Shown: positions 29,936-56,310 of the stretch, one piece after another
How positions within the stretch are numbered: the stretch's first letter is position 1
Layout: each line of letters begins with the position of its first letter
NCBI GenBank assembly: GCA_947044365.1
Contig: OX345636.1
Span: forward strand, 2,314,001-2,378,000
Length of the DNA stretch: 64,000 nt
Source of the DNA: Petrosia ficiformis
Taxonomy: Eukaryota > Porifera > Demospongiae > Haplosclerida > Petrosiidae
Direction of reading: 5' to 3'
The notes under the pieces: generated by a model
Databases searched by the model: none
What the model saw: the letters and a program-made list of their open reading frames with translations, nothing else
Told to the model about the DNA's origin: nothing
Position numbers and translations under genes: made by a program

Positions 29936-30064
29936 CGTATACATGTGGGTTCTAAAAATAGTAACAGATGGCCAGACAGATAGTTTGACCAATTTAATTA
30001 TATGCATGGTTGTTTACCACTCCTACTTTTACGCTTTCTGGTCAACATCATTATGGGCTCCTGT
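29650..30064. mobile_element. 565-bp TIR element, left-truncated copy 3
   Basis: It begins inside the element at ACTACATTGACTAAGTTTCC, lacking the left inverted repeat, and ends normally at GGGCTCCTG before a (TA)n tract. Confidence 0.72.
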
Positions 30065-30349
30065 ATATATATATATATATACTTAAGCAAGTATTCATTG
30101 TATACATGTAAGGAAAGAAGTTGCATCATTCCGGGGGGCTCAGTAAATTAGTGGGCGTGGCATGTAAAAGAACGCGTGCTCAAGCTATAGACCAGCAGGA
30201 AGAATGTAAACTGCAACTAATGCCACTATACAGCAGAGAAACAGTATAAAGATGATGCAAACAAATGATGAATTATCAACATCATGTATATTATATACAT
30301 GTATATGTAATATTATACAATATATAAATTATTATTTATATATATATAT

Positions 30350-31056
30350 TAAAGATGTACTGATATGGTTTTTTACAGATATTCCGATAACAGATATAAT
30401 AGCATGTTGTATTACCGATCCAATAATTGCCATCTAATACATGTATAAGAGTCACATAACTCACTCTTCATGTTTTATCATCTTCAGACCATTTCAAAAA
30501 AGAAATAAATGATTGGAATAACTGAAGATAATAATAATTATAATCAATAAATATATGAAGTACTATTATTTTTATTGTTGACTGATATTAAATCTAAGGG
30601 GTTCAGTATGTGTATTTATCTCCAACAAGTGCAAAGTTATTCTTTATATACAGGAGCATTTCTGCCTTTTCTGGAGCCAAACGGGATCGTCGATCATCAT
30701 ATATTTGTCCTGCACCAGAAAACAACCTTTCTGATGGAACACTTGTTGGAGGGGCACAAGCTCTTTTTGTCTTTCCCACCACAGGCAACAGATTTGTTGC
30801 ATAATTTACAAATGGCAAACCTTTCATCACTAGCAACTTCAAAATACTCCCATATTGGTGAACGCTTAGCCATTATGAGGAATTGATAACGTCTTGACGA
30901 ACTTTAACAATTGTAGAAAAAAGCCCACGTGGCTCCCGTTACTGTGCATGCGCAAATATAATAATTTTATTTCAATAAAATTCGATACAGATATTTACCG
31001 ATAAACATGATATCGGTACCGATCCGATTATTAGACCGATAATCGATACATCTTTA
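30350..31056 (-). mobile_element. hAT deletion derivative, about 0.7 kb
   Basis: It has the same ends as 19049-20316 without the nested insertion. On the minus strand, ATG 30873 begins a BED-finger-like start (MAKRSPIWEYFEVASDERFA, ICKLC), which runs out of frame directly into the hAT C-terminal dimerisation motif in another frame. An internal deletion has therefore removed the catalytic part. Confidence 0.72.
30603..30873 (-). pseudogene. hAT transposase remnant (BED finger start fused to dimerisation end)
   Basis: One frame gives the N-terminal BED-like piece with WEYF and CKLC. The overlapping frame gives APPTSVPSERLFSGAGQIYD and RRSRLAPEKAEMLLYIKNN, the classic hAT dimerisation signature (SVPSERLFS, RxxLxPe, lLflkxN). 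The full transposase is normally about 600 residues, so most is missing. The near-identical copy at about 19340-19590 has more substitutions. Confidence 0.75.
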
Positions 31057-38991: not shown

Positions 38992-41900
38992 TCAGAATAT
39001 TTCTTTCTTGATCAAACTAGCTATGTCATAGCATCCGTTTGAAATTGCAGCTTCACTTGCATTTCTTTTTTCATCTTCATTATGAGTTCCTTGTTTTAGA
39101 AGGTATTCTACAATATTGATATCTCCATTCTGGGATGCAATCTCCAATGGTGTTTCGTTCGCAATAGTTGTTTTGTGAAGCAAATCTGGAGCCCTTTCGT
39201 ACATGGATCGAATGATCTGCAGATACCCATTCTCAACAGCTACGTGGAATGCAGTCTTTCCATTGTTGTCAGGAAGACTAAGATTAGCTTCTTTCTGAAT
39301 AAGGTATGAAGCAACTTTGGGATAGTGTTTGGATAGGGAAAGATGAAGAGCTGTTTCCTGGCTTGTGTGTGTTTGTACGTTCATGTCCACTCCATTATCA
39401 ACCAATAAAGCCACAAGTTCTACCGCTCCGGTACTGGCTGCATCCATTAAAGCTGTAAAGCCATTTTTGTCAAAGACACCACACTGAGCACCTTTGGATA
39501 TCAACAAACTAACAACCTCAGTTTGGCCTTTGACGCATGCCAATTGAAGGGGTGTACAATCATTATTCGACCTAGCATCCACCAACCTCTGGAGTTGCTT
39601 GTCTTGTGAAGTATGCTGCTGATCGCCAGCTAAGGTCTTGTGATTTAACAACAATGACACAGTTTGAATGTGACCTTCTTGAGCTGCAAGATGTAGAGGT
39701 GTCCAACCATCTTTATCCTGTGCTTGCATTTCACACCCATTGTGAAGAAGGATTTCACATACTTCCTTCCCTCCCTTGAAAGCTGATAGATGTAAGCAAT
39801 TCCGTTTGGTGTTAATTGTTCGATGACAATCAGCTCCAAGATTGATGAGTGTACGAACAGTAGTACTATGGCAGTTGTTACATGCGGAATGAAGGGGTGT
39901 CCACTGATTGCTGTCTGTGACATCAATATTTGGTGCATTTACATGTTTAACTAATAGTTTCACAATATCAGGATGATCGAACATTGCAGCCAGGTGGAGA
40001 GGAATACGAAGATAATTTGACCTTGCTGTAGGATCTGCTCCTTTAGCTAGAAGAAGTTGAATTAAGCCAATGTGGCCCCGTTGTGCTGCAACATGAAGAG
40101 GTGTCCAGCCCTCTCTGTCGGGTACATCTATGTCAATGTTTTCATCCAGTAGATATTTTGCCATTTCTTTCTGGTCGTGGAATGCACAGATATGTAAAGC
40201 ATTTCGTCCTATATCCATTTTAGCATTTATCTCTGCCCCATTCTCTTTCAAAAGCTTGCCAGATTTTAAATGTCCTTTTTTACATGCCACATGAAAAGGA
40301 GTCAGCTGTTTATTATCTCTACTGTGAACGTTTGCACCCTTGGAAATGAGATATTTAATAATATTGATGCCACCTGAGTAGGAACACATGTGTAATGGAG
40401 TACGACCATTTTTGGTGGTTGCATGTACATTTGCTTTTTTTTCAACAAGAACCTTAACCACATCCAAATGCCTTTCCCAAGCTGCCAGATGTAGAGGAGT
40501 CCATCCATATACATCTTCAGCATCCACATCTTTGTCCTTAAGTTTCTCGATAAGAAGATGACAAATTTCCAAAAACCCATTCCTGGCAGCCAAATGAAGT
40601 GCAGTCCTACCTTCTTCAGTCTTTCCACGAACATTGATATGACTTTTCTTTAAAAGTAAAGACACAACATCTTTGTTATTGCTACTAAGACAAGCTGTGT
40701 AAAGAGGAGACCACTCACGATGATCTTGCTGATTAATGTTTGCTCCATTTTTAATTAGAAAATCAACTACCTCTTTTTTACCCTCAAGAGATGCTAAATG
40801 AAGAGCTGTTTTCCCATTCAATGACTGAGTATTGACATCAACATGTAGTGACTGATTGCGAACAAGCTCTTTCACAATTTCGATGTGACCTTTCTGTGAG
40901 CACAAGTGCAAAGGAGTGAAACCTTCGTTGTCTTTAACCATACAGTCTGTTTGCTTGTCCTTTATATGCCCTGCAAGAAGCAATTTCATGATTTCCACGT
41001 GACCAAAAGAGCATGCAGAATGTAGGGGAATACGTCCATTCTTAGCCCTGTTTAAAATATTAATATTGGGTACTTCAAGAAGGGTTTGTACTATGTCTGT
41101 ATGTGCTTGTTGAACAGCAAGATATAGTGGGCTCCACCCTTCTGTATCCTTAAGATTGCAATTAATAGAATATTTGATAAGGCATCGAACTACATCAGAA
41201 TGGCCTTCAAATGCGGACAAATGAAGACAGCTGCGACCGCTAGGGAGAACATCATTGACACAATTTGGATGTTCACTAACTAAAAGATCAACTATATTGG
41301 AGAAGCCATTCTGTGAGGCAACATGCAAAGGTGTCCAACCTTTTGAATCTTTAAGCGTGGTATCAGCATGATGGTCAAGTAAAAGCTTAACCATCTGGAA
41401 TTCCCCTTTCCACGCTGCAGTGTGAATTGGTGTACACTTATTGTTTGCTTGACTATTAATAATTTCTACATCAATTCTAGGATTACTTAGAAAGCACTTT
41501 ATAACGTCAGCATGACCTTCTTGTGCTGCCAAGTGGAAAGGAGTCCAGCCATCCTTATCCTTTGAACCAACCAACTTGTGCCCTTCACTTGTTTCTAGTA
41601 AATATTTTACACACTCTTTATTCCCATGGAAGCTGGCAGCATGCATTGCATTACGTTTATATAATTCGCTACATAAGGATAGATCAGCTTGTGAGCATAT
41701 TAATTTAACTATGTCAGGGTGATTCTCCTGACTAGCCAGAATAACAGCTGTCCACCCTTCGTTATCTTGTACGTCAACAGAACACTTTTCCTGCTGTAGC
41801 AAAATTTTCGCACATTCGGTATGGCCCTCAAAAGCAGCAAGATGTAAACATGTTCTACCAGTCTCCTCTCGAAGGTCAACCTTAGCTCCCTCCAATATAA

Positions 41901-42405
41901 GAAAATTAACAATTTTATCATATCCATACTGGCAGGCATAGTGTAAAGGAGACCACTTTTTGTTATCCTGGTGGTTAATAAGATTGGCTTTACGATCTCC
42001 TACCTTTTCAGTAACTAGTTTTACTATTTCTAAGGAATTGCTACATACTGCCTCATGAATGGTGGTGGAATTTATGTCTTTCACCAGATCTATTGCAGCT
42101 GTATACTTATCAATGAAAAGCTGAACTATTTCAAGATTGCCCATACCACATGCAATATGTATAGGTGCATAACCGTCATTGTTAAGAATATTTGGATTAG
42201 CACCTTTTGTCAGTAACAGCTTACATATTTCTGCATGCTCACCCTCAACAGCCAAATGAATAGCAGCTTGTTCGCCATGAGATTTAGTATTATAGGTAAG
42301 TTCATCTATTATACTTGAATTTTGTGCTAGTATTTTCTGAACTTCAGGTAAATTTCCCTCAGCGCAAGCATCATGAAGGTGATGAAGCGTCCTCAAGTGT
42401 TCCAT
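38992..42405 (-). CDS. Giant ankyrin-repeat protein, 1137 aa, single coding exon
   Basis: An uninterrupted 1137-residue frame made of about 31-33 ankyrin repeats of 33-36 residues, from a capping repeat near residue 10 to the C-terminus (ending KKEIF). Consensus pieces such as DxxGWTPLHLAAQEGH recur throughout. From about repeat 5 to repeat 27 the repeats alternate between a GW(T/S)PLH type and a GR(N/T/S)xLHLxAF type, so the real duplication unit is about 66-70 residues. I see no signal peptide, membrane segment, kinase, caspase or Death domain, so it is probably an intracellular scaffold or recognition solenoid. The start is the first ATG; just upstream on the minus strand is a splice acceptor (TTTGCAG ending at 42411), matching a donor at 42504 (AAAAG/GTAAGA), which gives a 94-nt intron in the 5' leader. 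It is head to head with the ankyrin/pseudocaspase gene. Function cannot be named; partners are unknown. Confidence 0.93.
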   Translation of the reverse strand: MEHLRTLHHLHDACAEGNLPEVQKILAQNSSIIDELTYNTKSHGEQAAIHLAVEGEHAEICKLLLTKGANPNILNNDGYAPIHIACGMGNLEIVQLFIDKYTAAIDLVKDINSTTIHEAVCSNSLEIVKLVTEKVGDRKANLINHQDNKKWSPLHYACQYGYDKIVNFLILEGAKVDLREETGRTCLHLAAFEGHTECAKILLQQEKCSVDVQDNEGWTAVILASQENHPDIVKLICSQADLSLCSELYKRNAMHAASFHGNKECVKYLLETSEGHKLVGSKDKDGWTPFHLAAQEGHADVIKCFLSNPRIDVEIINSQANNKCTPIHTAAWKGEFQMVKLLLDHHADTTLKDSKGWTPLHVASQNGFSNIVDLLVSEHPNCVNDVLPSGRSCLHLSAFEGHSDVVRCLIKYSINCNLKDTEGWSPLYLAVQQAHTDIVQTLLEVPNINILNRAKNGRIPLHSACSFGHVEIMKLLLAGHIKDKQTDCMVKDNEGFTPLHLCSQKGHIEIVKELVRNQSLHVDVNTQSLNGKTALHLASLEGKKEVVDFLIKNGANINQQDHREWSPLYTACLSSNNKDVVSLLLKKSHINVRGKTEEGRTALHLAARNGFLEICHLLIEKLKDKDVDAEDVYGWTPLHLAAWERHLDVVKVLVEKKANVHATTKNGRTPLHMCSYSGGINIIKYLISKGANVHSRDNKQLTPFHVACKKGHLKSGKLLKENGAEINAKMDIGRNALHICAFHDQKEMAKYLLDENIDIDVPDREGWTPLHVAAQRGHIGLIQLLLAKGADPTARSNYLRIPLHLAAMFDHPDIVKLLVKHVNAPNIDVTDSNQWTPLHSACNNCHSTTVRTLINLGADCHRTINTKRNCLHLSAFKGGKEVCEILLHNGCEMQAQDKDGWTPLHLAAQEGHIQTVSLLLNHKTLAGDQQHTSQDKQLQRLVDARSNNDCTPLQLACVKGQTEVVSLLISKGAQCGVFDKNGFTALMDAASTGAVELVALLVDNGVDMNVQTHTSQETALHLSLSKHYPKVASYLIQKEANLSLPDNNGKTAFHVAVENGYLQIIRSMYERAPDLLHKTTIANETPLEIASQNGDINIVEYLLKQGTHNEDEKRNASEAAISNGCYDIASLIKKEIF

Positions 42406-42410
42406 ATCAA

Positions 42411-42504
42411 CTGCAAATAAGAGAGATAATTACATAGATGTATAATATAATAATAATAATTATCAAAATTTCTAACTATATGAGTACGACTTACAGTGTC
42501 TTAC
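42411..42504 (-). other. 5'-leader intron of the giant ankyrin gene
   Basis: On the minus strand, AAAAG/GTAAGA (donor at 42504) and TTATTTGCAG (acceptor ending at 42411) bracket 94 nt. The downstream exon begins five bases before the ATG at 42405, so the intron lies wholly in the untranslated leader and leaves the protein unchanged. This is inferred from consensus splice sites only. Confidence 0.6.
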
Positions 42505-42666
42505 CTTTTGTTAGGCAAATTTGGAGACTTCACCCGTTTCTAGTTCGATTGCGTTTTATAGCAATCCCGTGATTACGAATATTTACGTCACATGTGTTTA
42601 GATCTATATATAAGCCGCCGCGATATCGAGCATTCGGACAGCAAAAATTAACTCCAGCAAATAATC
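42505..42666. promoter_or_regulatory. Divergent promoter shared by the two ankyrin genes
   Basis: The interval between the minus-strand leader exon and the plus-strand ATG is under 170 bp. It holds a plus-strand TATA box (TATATATAAG at 42605-42614), placing the start of transcription near 42632-42640 and leaving a leader of about 30 nt before the ATG at 42667. A bZIP/CRE-like site (TTACGTCA, 42583-42590) is followed at once by an E-box-like CATGTG. Both genes encode ankyrin proteins, so joint regulation through this interval is likely, but that is inference. Confidence 0.6.
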
Positions 42667-45600
42667 ATGGTTAGTCTTCCAGAAAGTAAAATGTATTTTC
42701 GGGGTCCTGTCATCTCTTTGAAAGAACAGAGCATGAATATTATCTAAAACAGAAAAGGAGCTGATTTGCTATGATAACATTATATAGGCTATATGTATAA
42801 TTTAATAATTATTATTTTAATTATATTACATATGATCTTACACATGCAGGGTGATCAAGAGAAGATACTGTATGATGCTTGTAAACGTGGTAACCTTGAA
42901 GTCATAAATTCTTGTTCAGTAGAGGAGGCCAGAATCAATTGGAGAAATCCAGACGACGTAAGTGTGTTCTTTTTGCAAACATTCCTTGCATCTGTGCATA
43001 GTGTAATTATGTTGAATGTATGTGCATTGACAAAATGATACTATTATTATAATTTCTTTGTAGATGGATAGATCTTTTTTGCATATTGCAGCAAGATATG
43101 GTCGTGAAGATGTTGTCAATCATCTTCTTTTAAAGACGAAGGCAAAATTGACCCAGTGTGATAAAGTGAGTCGTGCTTGGATTTGAAAATCCACATTCAT
43201 CATTCATACTTTGAGTACATACATGAGAGAAATAATGAAGTTGAGTCTTAGAGAGAAATAAAGTAGTTAATTTATGTTATATAGGTATAACATCCCAAAA
43301 AAGCACACTGTTAAACCATATTTACAAATGTAACAAGAGAGCAGCTGTACATAGGATGCAATTGTGCGCATCTTGCCTTATAAATCACATTTCTGTTCTT
43401 AGGATGAATTGAGCTGAGACGTTTTGTGTGTATACGAGCAACACAATTTTAATACTATACTCAACACCTAGAAAATTGACATCAACAGAAAGATTTTCCC
43501 GAATTACTCACATGTGTTTAAAGTGAAACTAAAATAGGTTTGCTGTTTTTCAGTTTTATTGACTATTAATTTTAGTAGAACAGTACATTAAGTCATTAAC
43601 TTTGTCCTGAAATCATTTTAAAGACTGAATTGTAATCACAGCTTCTCTGTTAGAAGTGTTTGGATTGGAGTCTGTCCAGTACCATTTGCTATTTGCTATT
43701 TTAATGCACAAAACAATTATTATTTGCATGCTGATCATTAAATGACCATAACCAGATCTGAACAACATTTGCTAGCTATAGAACATTCCAGTGATACTAA
43801 CTCAGGAGCTATCAATAATCTTCTATATAACATATCAATGTTTATTGGCTTCCTATACAAATGCTGAAGAATAAACAATGTAATTGATCATTTGCATGAA
43901 AGAGCCCTTTTTGAATATTAAGTTTATTTTTTTAATGATAAATTGTTGAAAGCTGGTCCCCACTACCTGAAGCAAATATTTAGGAACAAACAAAAAGGAA
44001 CAAAGTACAGGAAAAAAGTATTAAAGTAAATACGGTAGTCCTATATACTATGAAAATTTATTTGTAAACAAAATATGACCGGCAATAACAATAACATGTG
44101 AGTTGTTTATTATGAGAAACTCTAAGAGTATAGGCTTCACATGCATATGATACAAAAATAAACTGGGAGGACAATATATATATAATTAAGAATTTATATG
44201 TGCATTTAACAAATGTCATCATGATTAGTCCATGAATCCAGCAACTGTTGATCTCTTTTGAGGCGAGGATCCCAGACAAAGCATGAATAATCCAATATTT
44301 ATAATACCATGGTTTTATATATAAGTTTAGTAATCATAATTACATATAAGTGTTATAGTTATAATTATTTATACAACATGATTATTCTTGTGTAATTGAT
44401 ATAATTATTAACATTTTGTAATAACTATATAATTATAATTATAGCAATACGATTATTGTTGTATAGCTAATTGATATAATTATAATTATTATGAAATTAT
44501 AATTACAATTATACTATACAGCTATATAATATTATATATTTATTAGTGTAAATTTAATTTGTAACTTGGATTTTGTGTTTGAGACAATGCCTTTTTTAAT
44601 TAAGAGTATATAATTATATTTCTAATATTGCATTTAGAATAAACAGATTCCATTGCATCTTGCAATAACAAGTGGCAATCCCAAGGTGGTTGAGATGCTG
44701 TTACAAGCTGCAACTGAAAGAAACAAGAGTATAAGTATAGTAAATGTGAAAGATAAGGTGAATTTAATATTTCTAAAACAATACACTAAATGTTAAAGTA
44801 AATAATTCAATGGTATGTGCAGTTGCAAAGATTACTGAAACTTGATTTAAATTATCATGATGCAGGCTGTGGCTACATGCATGCTAATGCCCTTAGAAAT
44901 ACGTACTTTGCACCTACTATAACTGAAGTACATATTGCCAAAACAATCTTTTGTAGCATTTGCAATAAATTATGAGTTTGTAAGTTTTCAAAAAATCTAA
45001 ACAATTTGTTGACAGTTACTATGAAGTTTTATAAGTAACATAAAACGTATAACTAAATTTTATGGGTTCACCAGCAACTTTAAATCCTTGTAACTACAAT
45101 ATTTAATTAATGACAATTTTTTTTACAGTGTCAGTTATTCTGTAGTATAATAAAATTATAATCTTGGCTGTCTAAACAGCTGCACATGAGTGTTGTCAAA
45201 ATGATTATAAATAATAAACTTTGACATTTGCAGTATGGATTAACCCCTATGCATTGTGCAAGTGCACAGGGAAGAAAGGAGTGTATTAAGCTGCTGGTTC
45301 AACACAAAGCAAACCTTGAAATTACTGATGATGTAAGCCACTTTGTTTCTCATTCAAATGACTATTAATTTTATAGTCAAAATACTATATTTTATGATTG
45401 TCCCATGCAGAATGGAGATAGACCACTACACAAAGCAGCTATGAATGGACGAATTGATGCTGTTAAAGTTCTTACAGAACTGGGTGCATATTTATCTGCC
45501 TCTAATAAAGCAAGTTCATGTAATAGCTTTCTAAAGGAAATGTATTGTATAATAAACAATCATCATTGAAAAGTTTAATTCAGCTATATTTTAATTTCTA

Positions 45601-48600
45601 TTATAGTTTAATTCTACAATTATTCCCTGTTCTACATAATGTTGGTTTCGTATACGTAATTGCTGATCAATTTATTACAGGCTGGCAAAACGGCCCTTCA
45701 TCTTGCCAAAGAGGAAAACAGAACAGTATGTGCTGAGATACTTGAAGCCAAAATGGTTTGTGTTCTGATAATAATTAATGTTTACTCCTGAAATAATTAT
45801 TATAAGTTACATTTTATATACCTCTATCCTAGAGTAGTTATGTACATGCATATATGTGAAGTTTAATCAGCATGATTATTTGTAAGTATTATACCTTTCG
45901 CTATGTAGAAGCACAGAATGCTATCAGGACATCAGACAATAAATGAAGAGGAAGGAAAAGGTGAATAATTATAGTAAAATTGTCTAAAAACATCTGTGTT
46001 TATTTCTACAGTGGCTGGTGATGTGCAGAAAGAAACAGGTAAATATAAGTTGTATCATTTTAGAAAAAGTGTATTATGATTGCATACTCATTATTCATTT
46101 CATTGTTAAGAATTTTTTTTATCTGTCTGAAATGAAACAAACCACTCTTTCATTACTTTTGCAATGTATTTAGCACAGCATTATTGCTTCTTCCTGCTGA
46201 TCTGTTGACTGTAGCTTGAGTACTTTTATGTGCCAATCATATCAGACCCCATCCAGGCACTTTTCTTTAATTCCAAGTAATTTCAATCAGCCTAGTATGT
46301 GTGATGGGCTTATAACACCTTCATGAAGACTTAGAGTGATCTCACAATAGTTCACAGGAAGTAGAAGACATGCAATGTCAACTCTTGTTGGTTAGTGAGC
46401 TTCATTCATGGTTTTAAGTGGCACTCGGAGAGGTTGTTTTCCTCTTAATACTTCTATATGGTACATACCATGTAGTCTCGCATAGCCAGACCCACCCTCA
46501 GCAATACGACAGGAGGTTCTGGTCTATATACTGACATTACACCGTTCGTTCCAACTACCAAATATTTGGTAGTTCAAAGGTTACCTAACACAGAGTCAAG
46601 TGTGACTTTTACATTATGCTAACGTACTATTAATTTATGTCGGAATCTTTTTCTTGTGCGAAAGCAGTGTGCAGTCAGGGACTGCAAAAGCAACGATGTA
46701 GTCCCAGACTACACTGCACGCTGCTCTTGCACAAGAAACAGGACGCGTTAGGTGACCTTTGAACTATATACCAAATATTTGGTAACTTGGAACAAATGTC
46801 AGTAGACCAGACCCTCCCATCTTGTAGCAGAGGGTGGGTGTGGCTACGAGGACTGCATACAAGGCATGGCTTTGCAAGTCAAATAATAATTATAAACATT
46901 TGTTTCATTCACAGATGTAACTGCCGCCTTACCCCAAGAAGTGAAACAAAGTAAAGTAACCTTCATATACATCATTATAATTACATCGATATTAATTTCA
47001 TTGAACATTCCTAATAATTATTATCATAATCATTATTATTCTCAAACTACCATCGTAATTGTTATATCAAAATAATTATCATTATCCTATTTTTAGAGTT
47101 TATGGGCTTGGATGATAGAAAATCAACTTTAGGTATAATCACACTATAATTATTATATATTTTCAATTGTTGGTCAAATGGGGCTGGCATTTTCCTACTA
47201 AGCGCAACACAATTATATATAACCTTTATTTTTAGTGTTGCCATTGGAAAGACCATATGAAGGAGAAACCTCAACAGGTACATAGTAATAGTTTGTGTGT
47301 TTTGTTATTATTCCACATTCGTTTTCATATGTTATACTTACAGATACTTTTTATAATGACAGCCAATGGAATTTTACAGAAATATTTTCTGAATCTCCTG
47401 AAGCTCCTGGTATGGCATTCTTAATTGGGATGGCTGGTCGTGAAGGTGACATCAAGAAAATGACTACAGCATTTGAGACATTGCAATATGCTGTCTTTCC
47501 GATGGAAGACCCATCACTTGATGAGCTTCAGAGATTGGTCTACGAAGCTTCCAAAAATCTCGAATACCCTCTTGACTACAAAAACATTGTTTTTTATTTG
47601 GCTGGTCCAGGTGGGATTGATCCTCAGGCTAATCCCTATATATTAGGGCTGCATGGAGATGCAAACAGACAAGTGCATATCGAAGAAGAGATTATTATCC
47701 CTTTTGATGGAAGTCGATTAACGGCAAAGCGCCGTTTATTTTTTTTTGATATAATCTTGAGCGATTATCATTCTAAAAGTTCCAACATGAAAAAGCCACC
47801 CTATCTTCAACCACGTAGTGGGTTCCTTATTGCATTCTCAGCATTGAAACCTTGTTCAGAAATTTGTGATGATCAAGGTAAAGGTGGAATATGGACATAC
47901 CTTCTTCATGACAATCTGATAAAGCTTGGTACCAGTAACACTATTACTAGTATTCTCGACAGAACATTTCATCAACTTCGTGAACGTACGACTGGTAGAC
48001 GTGTGAGTTATAAACGGCAAGAATCACATTATGTCTCTTGTGTTGGTCCTATTTATCTTGATAAACCAGGTGATATAGTTCAACTTAATCCTTAGAAAAA
48101 ATGTTTTTCATAAATTCAATTATTATAGGAACTGCAATGGCAATTCAAGAGCAGAAACCAGTAGAAGGTGAGAAATGTGCTAGTGAGGATAGTATATTAT
48201 GTCAAAAGACATCATTAATATAATTAAGGTGCTAGGCAAATCTTCAAATGAGTTTACAGCTGCAAGCAGCTGTATATCACAAACTATCATAATATGTACT
48301 ATTAGTTTACAATACAATTGCATAATTTCTCAATTATAGATGGAAACGAAATTAGACAAAGTGAACCAAAACAGAAATATCAAGATATTTTGAAAAAAGA
48401 ACCAGAGCTCTATGATGTTTATCATCTGCTAATGGGTAAATGTGCAGAATGGAATATGTTTGCAATAATGCTAAGAGTCGATACTAATATCCGCACAACA
48501 TGCGAGAGTTGTACCAATAATTACTTAAATTTAGAGAAAATCATAGACAGTTGGATCCAAGCAAGACGAGATGACTGTGATGTGACATGGGAAATGATTC

Positions 48601-48719
48601 TTGATGGATTGCAAAAATTTCAAATGAATCTTCTTGCAAAAGAGGTAATTGATTTTCTAAAGAAGGATAAGACAATAAAGAAATACATGAAAAAAAAGGA
48701 TTTTTTCAACGATAATTAA
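42667..48719 (+). CDS. Ankyrin-repeat / pseudocaspase / Death-domain protein, 15 exons
   Basis: Exons I assembled: 42667-42669 (ATG alone), 42850-42957, 43064-43165, 44638-44757, 45234-45332, 45411-45509, 45681-45755, 45909-45960, 46012-46038, 46915-46950, 47097-47132, 47236-47277, 47344-48069, 48129-48167, 48340-48719. Introns 1-7 are phase 0; all later ones are phase 1. All are GT-AG except the one after 45509, which has a GC donor. The joined frame is open for 647 codons. Residues 2-202 are ankyrin repeats, close to one per exon (e.g. PMHCASAQGRKECIKLL). Residues about 203-266 are a linker from five mini-exons. Residues about 289-505 match the caspase p20/p10 fold, but the catalytic His and Cys positions hold Gly354 and Ile404. 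Residues about 545-628 form a Death domain with W559, W593 and the TW at 604-605. A poly(A) signal (AATAAA) follows at 48773. Likely an intracellular death-fold adaptor or regulator, not a protease. Function is inferred. Confidence 0.82.
43166..44637. other. Intron 3 of the ankyrin/pseudocaspase gene
   Basis: A 1472-nt intron, the longest in the gene, with donor AAA/GTGAGT and acceptor GCATTTAG. Its 3' half is dense in TAATTATA palindromic words. No nested gene recognised. Confidence 0.7.
46473..46854. mobile_element. Fold-back MITE in an intron (TAGTCTCG family)
   Basis: A 382-bp element lies inside the 876-nt intron between exons 9 and 10 of the pseudocaspase gene. Its ends are imperfect inverted repeats (TAGTCTCGCATAGCCAGACC against GGCTACGAGGACT). 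Internal inverted pairs include ACCAAATATTTGGT near both ends and CTTGTGCGAAAGCAG against CTGCTCTTGCACAAG. The outer TIR resembles those at 179-707, 9608-9731 and 50384-50519, which suggests a non-autonomous DNA-transposon family. Confidence 0.65.
47344..48095 (+). other. Pseudocaspase exon with alternative in-frame stop
   Basis: This exon supplies the whole caspase-like region. The p20 part runs AFLIGMAGREGD..., FETLQYAVF..., then YLAGPGG where active caspases have LSHG, and LFFFDIIL where they have FFIQAC(R/Q)G, so neither the catalytic His nor the Cys is present. The p10 part has SGFLIAFSAL and GGIWTYLL, equivalent to caspase (A/D)FLIAYST and GSWFIQ; the SWR piece that binds P1 aspartate is not recognisable. 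If the donor at 48069/48070 (CCAG/GTGATA) is used, the frame continues into the Death-domain exons in the correct phase 1. If it is ignored, the reading ends at TAG 48093-48095 after about eight extra residues, giving an ankyrin-pseudocaspase short form. Confidence 0.78.
48340..48719 (+). other. Death-domain terminal exon
   Basis: The exon follows acceptor CAATTATAG and ends at TAA 48717-48719. About 85 residues fit the six-helix Death fold: ELYDVYHLL, then WNMFAIMLRV (helix 2 with the conserved W), LEKIIDSWI (helix 4/5 with W), DVTWEMILDGL (the conserved TW step) and LAKEVIDFL. The lysine-rich tail has no further domain. Death domains mediate homotypic assembly of signalling complexes; the partner here is not deducible. 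The preceding mini-exon (48129-48167) encodes only a 13-residue linker. Confidence 0.72.
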
Positions 48720-48772
48720 TATTTCTGATGAACAAAATAATTATAATTGTAATTATTATGCTGCTGAATTTT

Positions 48773-48778
48773 AATAAA
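48773..48778 (+). terminator. Poly(A) signal of the ankyrin/pseudocaspase/Death gene
   Basis: A canonical AATAAA lies 54 nt after the stop codon of the last exon, in AT-rich sequence. Confidence 0.55.
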
Positions 48779-49389
48779 CATCCTATTATAATAATTAATA
48801 TACATACATATGATGAGCTATATATATTATTATATAATTATATAAATGTATTATAATTATATATATATAATTTTATATATATATAATTTACAAACAACAT
48901 GTTTTCATTTGTCTGTACCTGATTCTCTCTTGAACGTTTGCACATACATAGTTATTATGCACTCCACATAGGCTGACATAGCCAATGAAATTCATCCATA
49001 GACTTTTTTTACACTTGCAGATTATCACATACCAAGTCCATGCAATGCATGGACTTGGTATGTAAAAGTAAGTAAAGGATACATGGCATGCATCCTTTAC
49101 ATAGGCGTAGGAATCAGGGGGGCTCAGGGGGTTGCAGCCCCCCTATATTTTTTGTTAAGAAAATAAATTATCATTACGTACCAGCACGTGTTCTCGAGTG
49201 TTCTGATGATACTGCAGAAACTGTCATTCTCGAAGACTGCAACAACTTTTTACACAATCAGTAATGTTTAATTACGTCTATCATCGTGTCTTGTAGATAA
49301 GAACAGCAGTGAAACCAGTACTAATTAATTTAACAAAATCACTGTCTTACAGAAATTACAACTCATGCCAATTATATTGTCCACTGCCC
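48779..49389. other. Downstream spacer with palindromes
   Basis: Holds a perfect 17-bp-arm palindrome with a 1-nt centre (CATACCAAGTCCATGCA, 49028-49062), a second imperfect one at 49072-49100 (AAAGGAT...ATCCTTT) and a GGGGGGCT...GCCCCCC pair near 49117-49143. No gene. Confidence 0.5.
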
Positions 49390-54239: not shown

Positions 54240-55527
54240 ATGCCTATTTTTCTAAGCAGTCACAACTGGCTTAGAAAATGAATAGCCATACTGGCTTAGC
54301 ATGTACATGTACATGTACATGTACATATACAGTACTATAGTACTGGACATGTACATGTACATGTACATGTACAGTACTATAGTACTGGACATAAAAGCTA
54401 ACATTTTGTAATAGTAGAACTATTGTTTTACAGTTCCATTTGTTGCTGATTACAGTTGCAATCATATTTTAGAACAATGCTGATCATTTTGTGTTAGTAA
54501 GTATAATAATTAACCTACATGTACATGTATAATTAAAATGGGTGTTTTTGTTTACCCCAAAAATATGTGTGGGCAGAGCAATTAATATCTAATTCTTTTC
54601 AGCTCCATATAACTCTCATATTTTATCAGACTGAAGATTCTAACTTACTTTACTGCACAGAAGAGTTGTTAATAAAGCCAATGATGTTAAAATAATGTTT
54701 CGCTATCACCAGGAAGAGAGCAAGGTGAGCACTTGAAAGTATAGTAGTCCCATGGACAATGCCCACCTCTGTACAACCTTGTATAACTTATACATTTTAA
54801 ACAGCAGTGACGTTTAACTCACATACATGTATTTAGACAGAAGACCTGTTTAGAAAGCCATATATACCAAAAACATACTTCATTAGCTGCAAGAAAGCAG
54901 CAAGGCCAGTGTTTGAAAGTGTAGTAGTCAGTTGGCGATGCACATACTTAGTGTTCATGTGATTTCTTGTTGAAATGCACATCAGCAAAGATTGCTTTAT
55001 CTATTTCAATTGTTTTTAAAAACAATTGCAATCGTAAAAACCATTCTTAATCGTAAAAACATAACAAATCAAAGAACAATAGTAGAAACATTACTAAACG
55101 TTAACTTTTTTATCTCCTCTACTGTACCATTATTATGTTTACATACTATCACTCTACATGTACATGTACTTCCATTGACTGTAGCGTCATTTGTGAATGA
55201 AGTACACAGTACTTTGATTGTACTACACAGTATTACACCTTATCACACACAATTGTAATGGGAACTCACACATCATACTACATGTACATGACTGACTATA
55301 GTATATGTACTTAGAAGCACAGTTGACTATCACCTTATTAAAGTGTAGCTCTCATCATAAGTACATTGTATTTACACTTAATAATGTCAGGTACTGTACA
55401 TGTACATGTACATGTACATGTACGCCTTTTTGTTTTACATGTAAGCTTAATTATTACTGTATAATAGATTGGTTATGTATTAAATGTCACAACATACATT
55501 TTAACAGCTTGTATTATATTAGTATAT

Positions 55528-55687
55528 ACCAGGGTGGGAAATAAGCCTACAACATCTTCTGAGAAACTCCATCACCAGTGCTCACCACAGTACAACTAGC
55601 ATACATTGTCATGTCAAAATCTGGTGCTCCTTTAGCTAATTTTGGTGCTCAAATGAGCACTGGAGCACTGTTATTTCCCACTCTGGT
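55528..55687. mobile_element. 160-bp MITE, second copy
   Basis: ACCAGGGTGGGAAATAA at the left and TTATTTCCCACTCTGGT at the right. Corresponds to 22192-22339 with a small insertion (CATGTCAAAATCTGG). Confidence 0.6.
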
Positions 55688-55939
55688 ACATGTATATACT
55701 GTAATAATAAATATACTGTGTTAATATTAGCCACTATGGCTATATAGTTTACATTAACAACATTCTAACACCAAGCTAATTACCTGATTTCCTCTTTTCA
55801 CACCTGACTTCACAATTTATTGTGTAAATGGAATATTATACATATTACTATAATGATATGTCCACATGTAATTCTAAAGATTATTAATTTGGTTGATTCA
55901 CCTTTGCAGTGATCTAATTTATATGTCAGTACTTTGGAT

Positions 55940-56310
55940 ATACATGATATTCTCAGGAAAGAAAGAAAGAAAGACAGAAAGACACCTGAGGCAATGGAAA
56001 AATGAAAAAATGAGAGTTGCCTCAGGTGGGATTCGAACCCTAGACACACTGTACTCCAGACAGATGCTGTACGAACTGAGCTACCAAGGCAGCCCAGCTG
56101 GCAGTGTCCGAATCAAGGCTTAACCAATACTAGGCATTAGGTGAAGGCCAGGGTAATGAAACCACCAAAAGACACCAACACCGACCTTAGCATATATACT
56201 TGATATTCTCAGGAAAGAAAGAAAGAAAGAAAGACAGAAAGAAAGAAAGAAAGACACCTGAGGCAATGGAAAAATGAAAAAATGAGAGTTGCCTCAGGTG
56301 TACTTGTTAG
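55940..56310 (-). mobile_element. tRNA-headed SINE-like element, copy 2
   Basis: Both ends carry GATATTCTCAGGAAAG, AAAG repeats, CACCTGAGGCAATGGAAAAA and GAGAGTTGCCTCAGGTG. Between them is the pseudo-tRNA and about 70 nt (AGGCCAGGGTAATGAAACCA) shared with copy 3. Confidence 0.65.
56018..56090 (-). tRNA. tRNA-like segment, SINE head, degraded copy
   Basis: Same 73-nt layout as 57640-57712, but with mutations in the D-loop (GTTCGTACAGC instead of GTTGGTAGAGC) and the T-stem (CTAGGGTTCGAATCCCAC), breaking pairs in both arms. Pseudo-tRNA. Confidence 0.6.

Follow-up and report, generated by a model that had tools for sequence, protein, structure and literature searches.

The locus at 42667–48719 (+) of the window, that is, the whole 64,000-nucleotide stretch of DNA analysed here, raises the question of whether a protease fold that has lost its catalytic residues has been built into a single protein together with ankyrin repeats and a Death domain, and what role such a protein might play. 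The preliminary description read the locus as a fusion of these three domains in an unfamiliar order, and proposed a decoy or scaffold. Judged by its sequence, the gene is well formed, encodes a pseudoprotease, and belongs to a large family that is undergoing duplication, and the wider family is a more interesting find than the single gene. The protein appears to comprise ankyrin repeats, a C14 domain, and a divergent Death domain. Within this claimed fusion, the ankyrin and C14 parts are recognized by Pfam and the Death domain through its relatives, whereas the ankyrin-to-protease join is putative; a decoy or scaffold role is plausible.

A chain of 15 exons, all on the + strand, can be rebuilt into a stop-free frame of 647 residues, with 13 of the 14 introns bounded by GT-AG and one, after exon 6, by GC-AG. 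A TATA-like sequence of putative function, found by pattern scan (42605..42611, +), lies about 60 bases ahead of the first ATG, which makes up the whole of exon 1 in the rebuilt chain (42667..42669); an in-frame ATG immediately 5′ of exon 2 offers an alternative start. Exons 2 (42850..42957), 3 (43064..43165), and 4 (44638..44757) encode an ankyrin region, exons 5 (45234..45332) and 6 (45411..45509, with the GC donor) an ankyrin repeat each, and exon 7 (45681..45755) a partial last repeat, all six supported by the chain, by Pfam, and by a second genomic copy. Downstream, exon 13 (47344..48069) encodes the C14 (caspase-fold) domain, identified by Pfam, profiles, alignment, and Foldseek, in which Pro355 and Ile404 occupy the His and Cys sites and Asp402 is kept. 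It is followed by exon 14 (48129..48167), a putative linker of the rebuilt chain, and by exon 15 (48340..48719), which carries a divergent Death domain, recognized by homology to relatives and by the profile A4, and the stop codon. The AATAAA polyadenylation-like signal found by pattern scan 54 bases past the stop codon (48773..48778, +) is weak evidence, because 12 such motifs occur within 42601–49000.

We infer that exons 1–7 are joined to exons 13–15 through the mini-exons 8–12, and this is the weak link of the gene model. A splice-site score, trained on 8 acceptors and 7 donors from homology-supported exons, was applied to 440 candidates. By this score, of the five predicted linker exons, 27–52 bases in length, exon 8 (45909..45960) ranks 8, exon 9 (46012..46038) 10–11, exon 10 (46915..46950) 4–5, exon 11 (47097..47132) 23, and exon 12 (47236..47277) 15–16. 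Alternative donors outscore the one chosen for the exon 10 acceptor. The ankyrin part is in phase 0 throughout exons 1–7, exon 8 carries the frame from phase 0 to phase 1, and exons 9–14 are each of phase 1-1.

A Pfam scan of the 647-residue product matched Ank_2 to the ankyrin repeats (E 4.9e-32) and Peptidase_C14 (PF00656) to residues 298–488 (29.2 bits against a cut-off of 21.4; E 9.4e-7), and the landmarks FLIAFSA, GGIWTYLL, and KRRLFF, named in the preliminary description, are all present in the translated frame. Searched as a single sequence against the PDB, the C14 domain drew one insignificant match (E 0.83), so a family profile of 17 sequences (A1) was used instead; it reached caspase-7 at E 1.5e-14, and the caspase fold proposed earlier is thereby supported. 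The predicted structure of the domain is of moderate quality (pLDDT 53, pTM 0.63). Foldseek with this moderate model returned 224 PDB matches at E ≤ 0.001, and the best 50 of these 224 are caspase entries plus one MALT1 entry. NCBIfam gave zero matches for the target protein; the match of an active-type relative to a bacterial caspase subfamily fell far short of the cut-off.

The Death domain is reached by a less direct path. A profile check of the whole product had been suggested, and where its ankyrin and C14 parts matched, exon 15 yielded no Pfam match of its own at E ≤ 1, PF00531 included. Profile A4 comprises eight relatives, five of which reach PF00531 at E ≤ 1, two of them above the cut-off; such above-cut-off matches are found in the Death-exon relatives L043 (2.4e-7) and L023 (1e-5). 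P0008, 83% identical to exon 15, has Death as its top match under the cut-off (E 0.027), and the A4 profile finds the FADD Death domain as its best PDB match (E 1.2e-4). The genome holds at least 150 relatives of the Death exon, several of which overlap above-cut-off PF00531 matches, for example on C1 near 10.864 Mb. The predicted structure of the exon (pLDDT 52, pTM 0.39) is of too low a quality to serve as a structural query. Relatives of 48340–48719 in the databases are 83% identical at 87% coverage and 85% identical at 58% coverage.

Central to the question posed by this gene is its catalytic dyad. In the alignment of A1 with caspase-7, the catalytic residues line up with the His of the family and with the second of the two Cys in its DCC motif. 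The His equivalence was taken from this profile alignment; in the family alignment the eight canonical caspase rows are displaced by two columns at the His site, with the 90 family rows unaffected. At the two catalytic columns the target has Pro355 (His) and Ile404 (Cys) in place of the His-Cys dyad. The earlier assignment of the missing Cys to Ile404 was correct, whereas that of the missing His to Gly354 is off by one residue, Gly354 preceding the Pro355 that occupies the column.

At least 111 related C14 matches, the target domain included, are present in the genome, and 90 loci, representing 91 of the 111, were read at these columns, with the remaining 20 outside the counts. These loci are not independent, near-identical copies being among them, and 74 remain at 95% identity. 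Both His and Cys are kept in 71 of the 90 (58 of 74 after the collapse); the other states are Tyr-Cys (11), Pro-Ile (2), His-Phe (2), and single cases of Arg-Cys, Asp-Cys, Asn-Cys, and His-Ile. Part of the dyad is therefore missing at 19 loci, 17 of them besides the target and its copy, to which the Pro/Ile pair is confined among the 90. By our reading of the tree, dyad losses fall at six or more places, a count to be taken with caution given long branches, among them that to the target gene (1.13 changes per column). Five more distant database relatives keep both His and Cys. Fifty columns are conserved in 80% or more of 86 relatives, and the target agrees with 39 of them; among the 11 at which it departs are the His, both Cys of the DCC motif, and positions in and near the caspase Arg207-site loop. 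A retained fold signature with both catalytic residues gone fits a pseudoprotease better than random decay, and the target domain is predicted to have no protease activity.

The family has a distinctive residue signature. Asp stands at Cys-2 in all 90 loci, target included; Arg is found at the caspase Arg207 column in none of them (4 gaps) and at the R64 column in 4 (15 gaps, the target among the gaps). Canonical caspases (C14A) are recognized by QACxG and by an Arg pair for P1 Asp (R64 and R207 of caspase-3), a combination that the target does not show; the Asp at Cys-2 in the S1 pocket, the paracaspase-like mark, is present in both target and family. Because of this Asp and the missing Arg207 equivalent, the family does not consist of ordinary Asp-cutting caspases. 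The target domain has the caspase fold, as originally described, but belongs to this family and not to the canonical caspases. Eight QACxG caspases of the same genome (L001–L008) form a separate clade in the midpoint-rooted tree; examples of family loci are L011–L038 and L046–L105. In MALT1, as reported in PMC4626109, Asp462 helps anchor a P1 Arg, and caspase-3 has Gln161 at that position; by this comparison, active relatives may favour a basic P1.

Across the genome, C14 domains repeatedly have a Death domain downstream. At no fewer than 30 of the 111 C14 matches, a Death-exon relative occurs on the same strand no more than 3 kb downstream, against one upstream on the same strand, one downstream on the opposite strand, and none upstream on the opposite strand; the counts took in all 111 C14 matches and all 150 Death relatives listed, and are lower bounds. 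By this recurrence, the half of the putative fusion encoded by exons 13–15 is better supported than the ankyrin join. What lies upstream of the C14 domains differs: ankyrin, Death, or ankyrin with a Roc/COR-like part. A Death domain precedes C14 at several loci (hand-picked parts of the Death list; 108 of the 111 C14 matches), and at G000:C1:1385632-1389595 and similar loci Death, C14, and Death follow one another on one strand. At L106 (3-5280, G000:C9), ankyrin repeats and a Roc/COR-like part (under the Pfam cut-off) share a frame of 1200 residues or more, which is followed by an intact C14 domain; elsewhere on C9, ankyrin and C14 matches occur on the same strand within 4 kb of each other. 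An AIG1-type GTPase frame (L045:1022-1933), which may be a separate gene, lies about 3 kb upstream of an intact C14-Death pair. These upstream modules (Death, ankyrin/Roc/COR-like, and AIG1) are, by genomic adjacency, candidate parts of C14 genes. The claimed novelty of the domain order is weakened accordingly, given the recurrent C14-then-Death order, the ankyrin repeats that precede an intact C14 domain at L106, and the Amphimedon proteins discussed below (PMC8195603); the open-access literature titles and abstract openings searched describe no ankyrin-pseudocaspase-Death protein.

A second copy of the gene lies some 330 kb away, in a 9.8-kb stretch (C1 2.685–2.694 Mb) that is 99.0–99.1% identical, introns included, and retains all 15 exons, the splice sites, and the reading frame. 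Ten of the 11 exonic differences between the copies alter the protein, a proportion (p 0.48 against sites) that gives no sign of purifying selection. An appearance of exon conservation between the copies weakened on re-check, when all exons were taken together (11/1944 differences against 36/4109 in introns, p 0.21). Under a post hoc split, exons 1–14 have fewer differences than introns (4/1564, p 0.012), and exon 15 has more than exons 1–14 (7/380, p 0.0017; against introns, p 0.089). The flanks of the gene are duplicated as well and part of them is inverted, which makes a rearranged duplication likelier than an uncollapsed haplotype; by these signs, the region around the gene is a recently rearranged segmental duplication cluster. 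The segments 30001–31000 and 55001–56000 likewise have 97–100% copies at C1 2.65–2.83 Mb, some of them inverted. A protein from ENA contigs, P0001, is 98% identical, carries the same Pro and Ile together with two residues unlike either copy, and is taken to come from another individual. A public protein set searched with residues 265–647, confined to 2467 candidates of similar total length, held none at E ≤ 0.001.

What might such a protein do? The explanation that we favour, to which we would give very nearly an even chance, is that a catalytically dead, ankyrin-bearing C14-Death protein tunes its active paralogues within Death-domain assemblies. Its ankyrin repeats would be the part that binds a partner or senses a ligand. 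Through its Death domain it would join Death-domain assemblies, which would recruit active paralogues too, and there the dead C14 domain would block or tune an active one by pairing or competing with it, as in c-FLIP(L) and caspase-8. Since 71 of the 90 loci keep the dyad, active partners probably exist. The same observation argues against a rival reading as a Death-domain scaffold or adaptor, whose C14 fold would be no more than a structural or oligomerization module and would not pair with active paralogues. Such a scaffold would have an identical anatomy, and the 17 other partly dyad-less loci are compatible with it; we judge it unlikely, marginally more so than the split-gene reading discussed next.

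That reading divides the locus into two adjacent genes, a short ankyrin-only gene made up of exons 1–7 and ending at a stop 11 codons beyond the exon 7 donor, and next to it an independent gene for the C14-Death pseudoprotease. It draws on the shortness of mini-exons 8–12, which have no homology support, on an AATAAA at 45938, and on two C14-Death loci: upstream of L107, tblastn at E 0.05 found no ankyrin match within the stretch examined, and upstream of L045 the ankyrin matches within the stretch examined are at chance level (best E 0.94). Against it, no ATG is found in the C14 frame ahead of the first conserved strand, which means that upstream exons are needed; all five mini-exons are among the best 23 of 440 and a phase-consistent chain exists; and the intact C14 domain of L106, itself a candidate single gene, has an ankyrin frame in front of it. 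On balance we consider two genes unlikely, if still worth serious attention. Somewhat more doubtful than either is a decaying duplicate, whose dyad loss would reflect relaxed selection without a regulatory role. The long branch, the predominance of nonsynonymous differences, exons that overall are not less divergent than introns, and the recent duplication and rearrangement of the region all speak for decay, but both copies are intact across 15 exons, a further database protein keeps the domain intact, and 39 of the 50 conserved columns persist.

The favoured explanation, that of a dead paralogue tuning active ones, has precedents that differ in their construction. c-FLIP has its DEDs at the N-terminus and an Asp-specific caspase as its homologue, whereas here a C-terminal Death domain is combined with N-terminal ankyrin repeats, and Asp stands at Cys-2; the Pfam scan found no DED match in the product, and thus not the tandem DEDs of c-FLIP. 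Common to both are a dead caspase-fold domain, one or more active homologues, and a coupling to death-fold recruitment domains. According to PMC11121540, the caspase-fold domain of c-FLIP(L) is inactivated by mutated catalytic residues and pairs with its active homologue caspase-8; the DED of c-FLIP is named in PMC8195603. With MALT1 and the paracaspases, the family shares the Asp at Cys-2 (D462 in MALT1, aligned with Q161 in caspase-3; PMC4626109) and the lack of the caspase Arg pair, and type 1 paracaspases also carry a Death domain (PMC5978004). As described in the latter source, type 1 has N-terminal Death and Ig domains and type 2, reported in Porifera, consists of the paracaspase domain alone; here, Death is C-terminal, the Pfam scan found no Ig match, and the dyad is lost.

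A further counterpart is the Death/TRADD-N expansion of Amphimedon, a similarly large combinatorial repertoire of death-fold, ankyrin, and caspase parts, for which Kaur et al. (2021; PMC8195603) report 357 TRADD-N proteins, many with death-fold domains and with variable C-termini that include ankyrin repeats or caspases. There, one to three N-terminal death-fold domains and TRADD-N precede the variable C-termini, whereas here C14 is followed by Death and the upstream part varies. The caspase-like decoys of Diptera, which likewise lack activity, are caspase homologues produced by duplication and are candidate regulators of other caspases (PMC3141678); the part of that source drawn on here mentions neither ankyrin nor Death domains for them.

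More speculatively, and in our estimate unlikely as a whole though not far-fetched, a large and shuffled set of MALT1-like Death-domain proteases (Asp at Cys-2), dead members included, may have evolved in an early animal, independently of vertebrates. Within this set, the ankyrin pseudoprotease would switch its active siblings off, or select among them, in response to a ligand, so that a c-FLIP-like principle would operate in another protease subfamily. If so, dead paralogues would be able to control death-fold proteases without DEDs and outside the Asp-specific caspases and, should the host be a sponge, early animals would have applied such control on a different C14 branch. With its 111 or more C14 matches and its 19 of 90 loci without part of the dyad, the family would provide natural pairs of active and dead proteases, in which the roles of pseudoproteases could be tested in animals without adaptive immunity.

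The immediate surroundings of the gene hold a further ankyrin frame, intronless, of 1145 residues, and in divergent orientation to the gene, on the opposite strand at 38992–42429 (−), about 240 bases away; the second copy is likewise adjoined by a 1145-residue frame.
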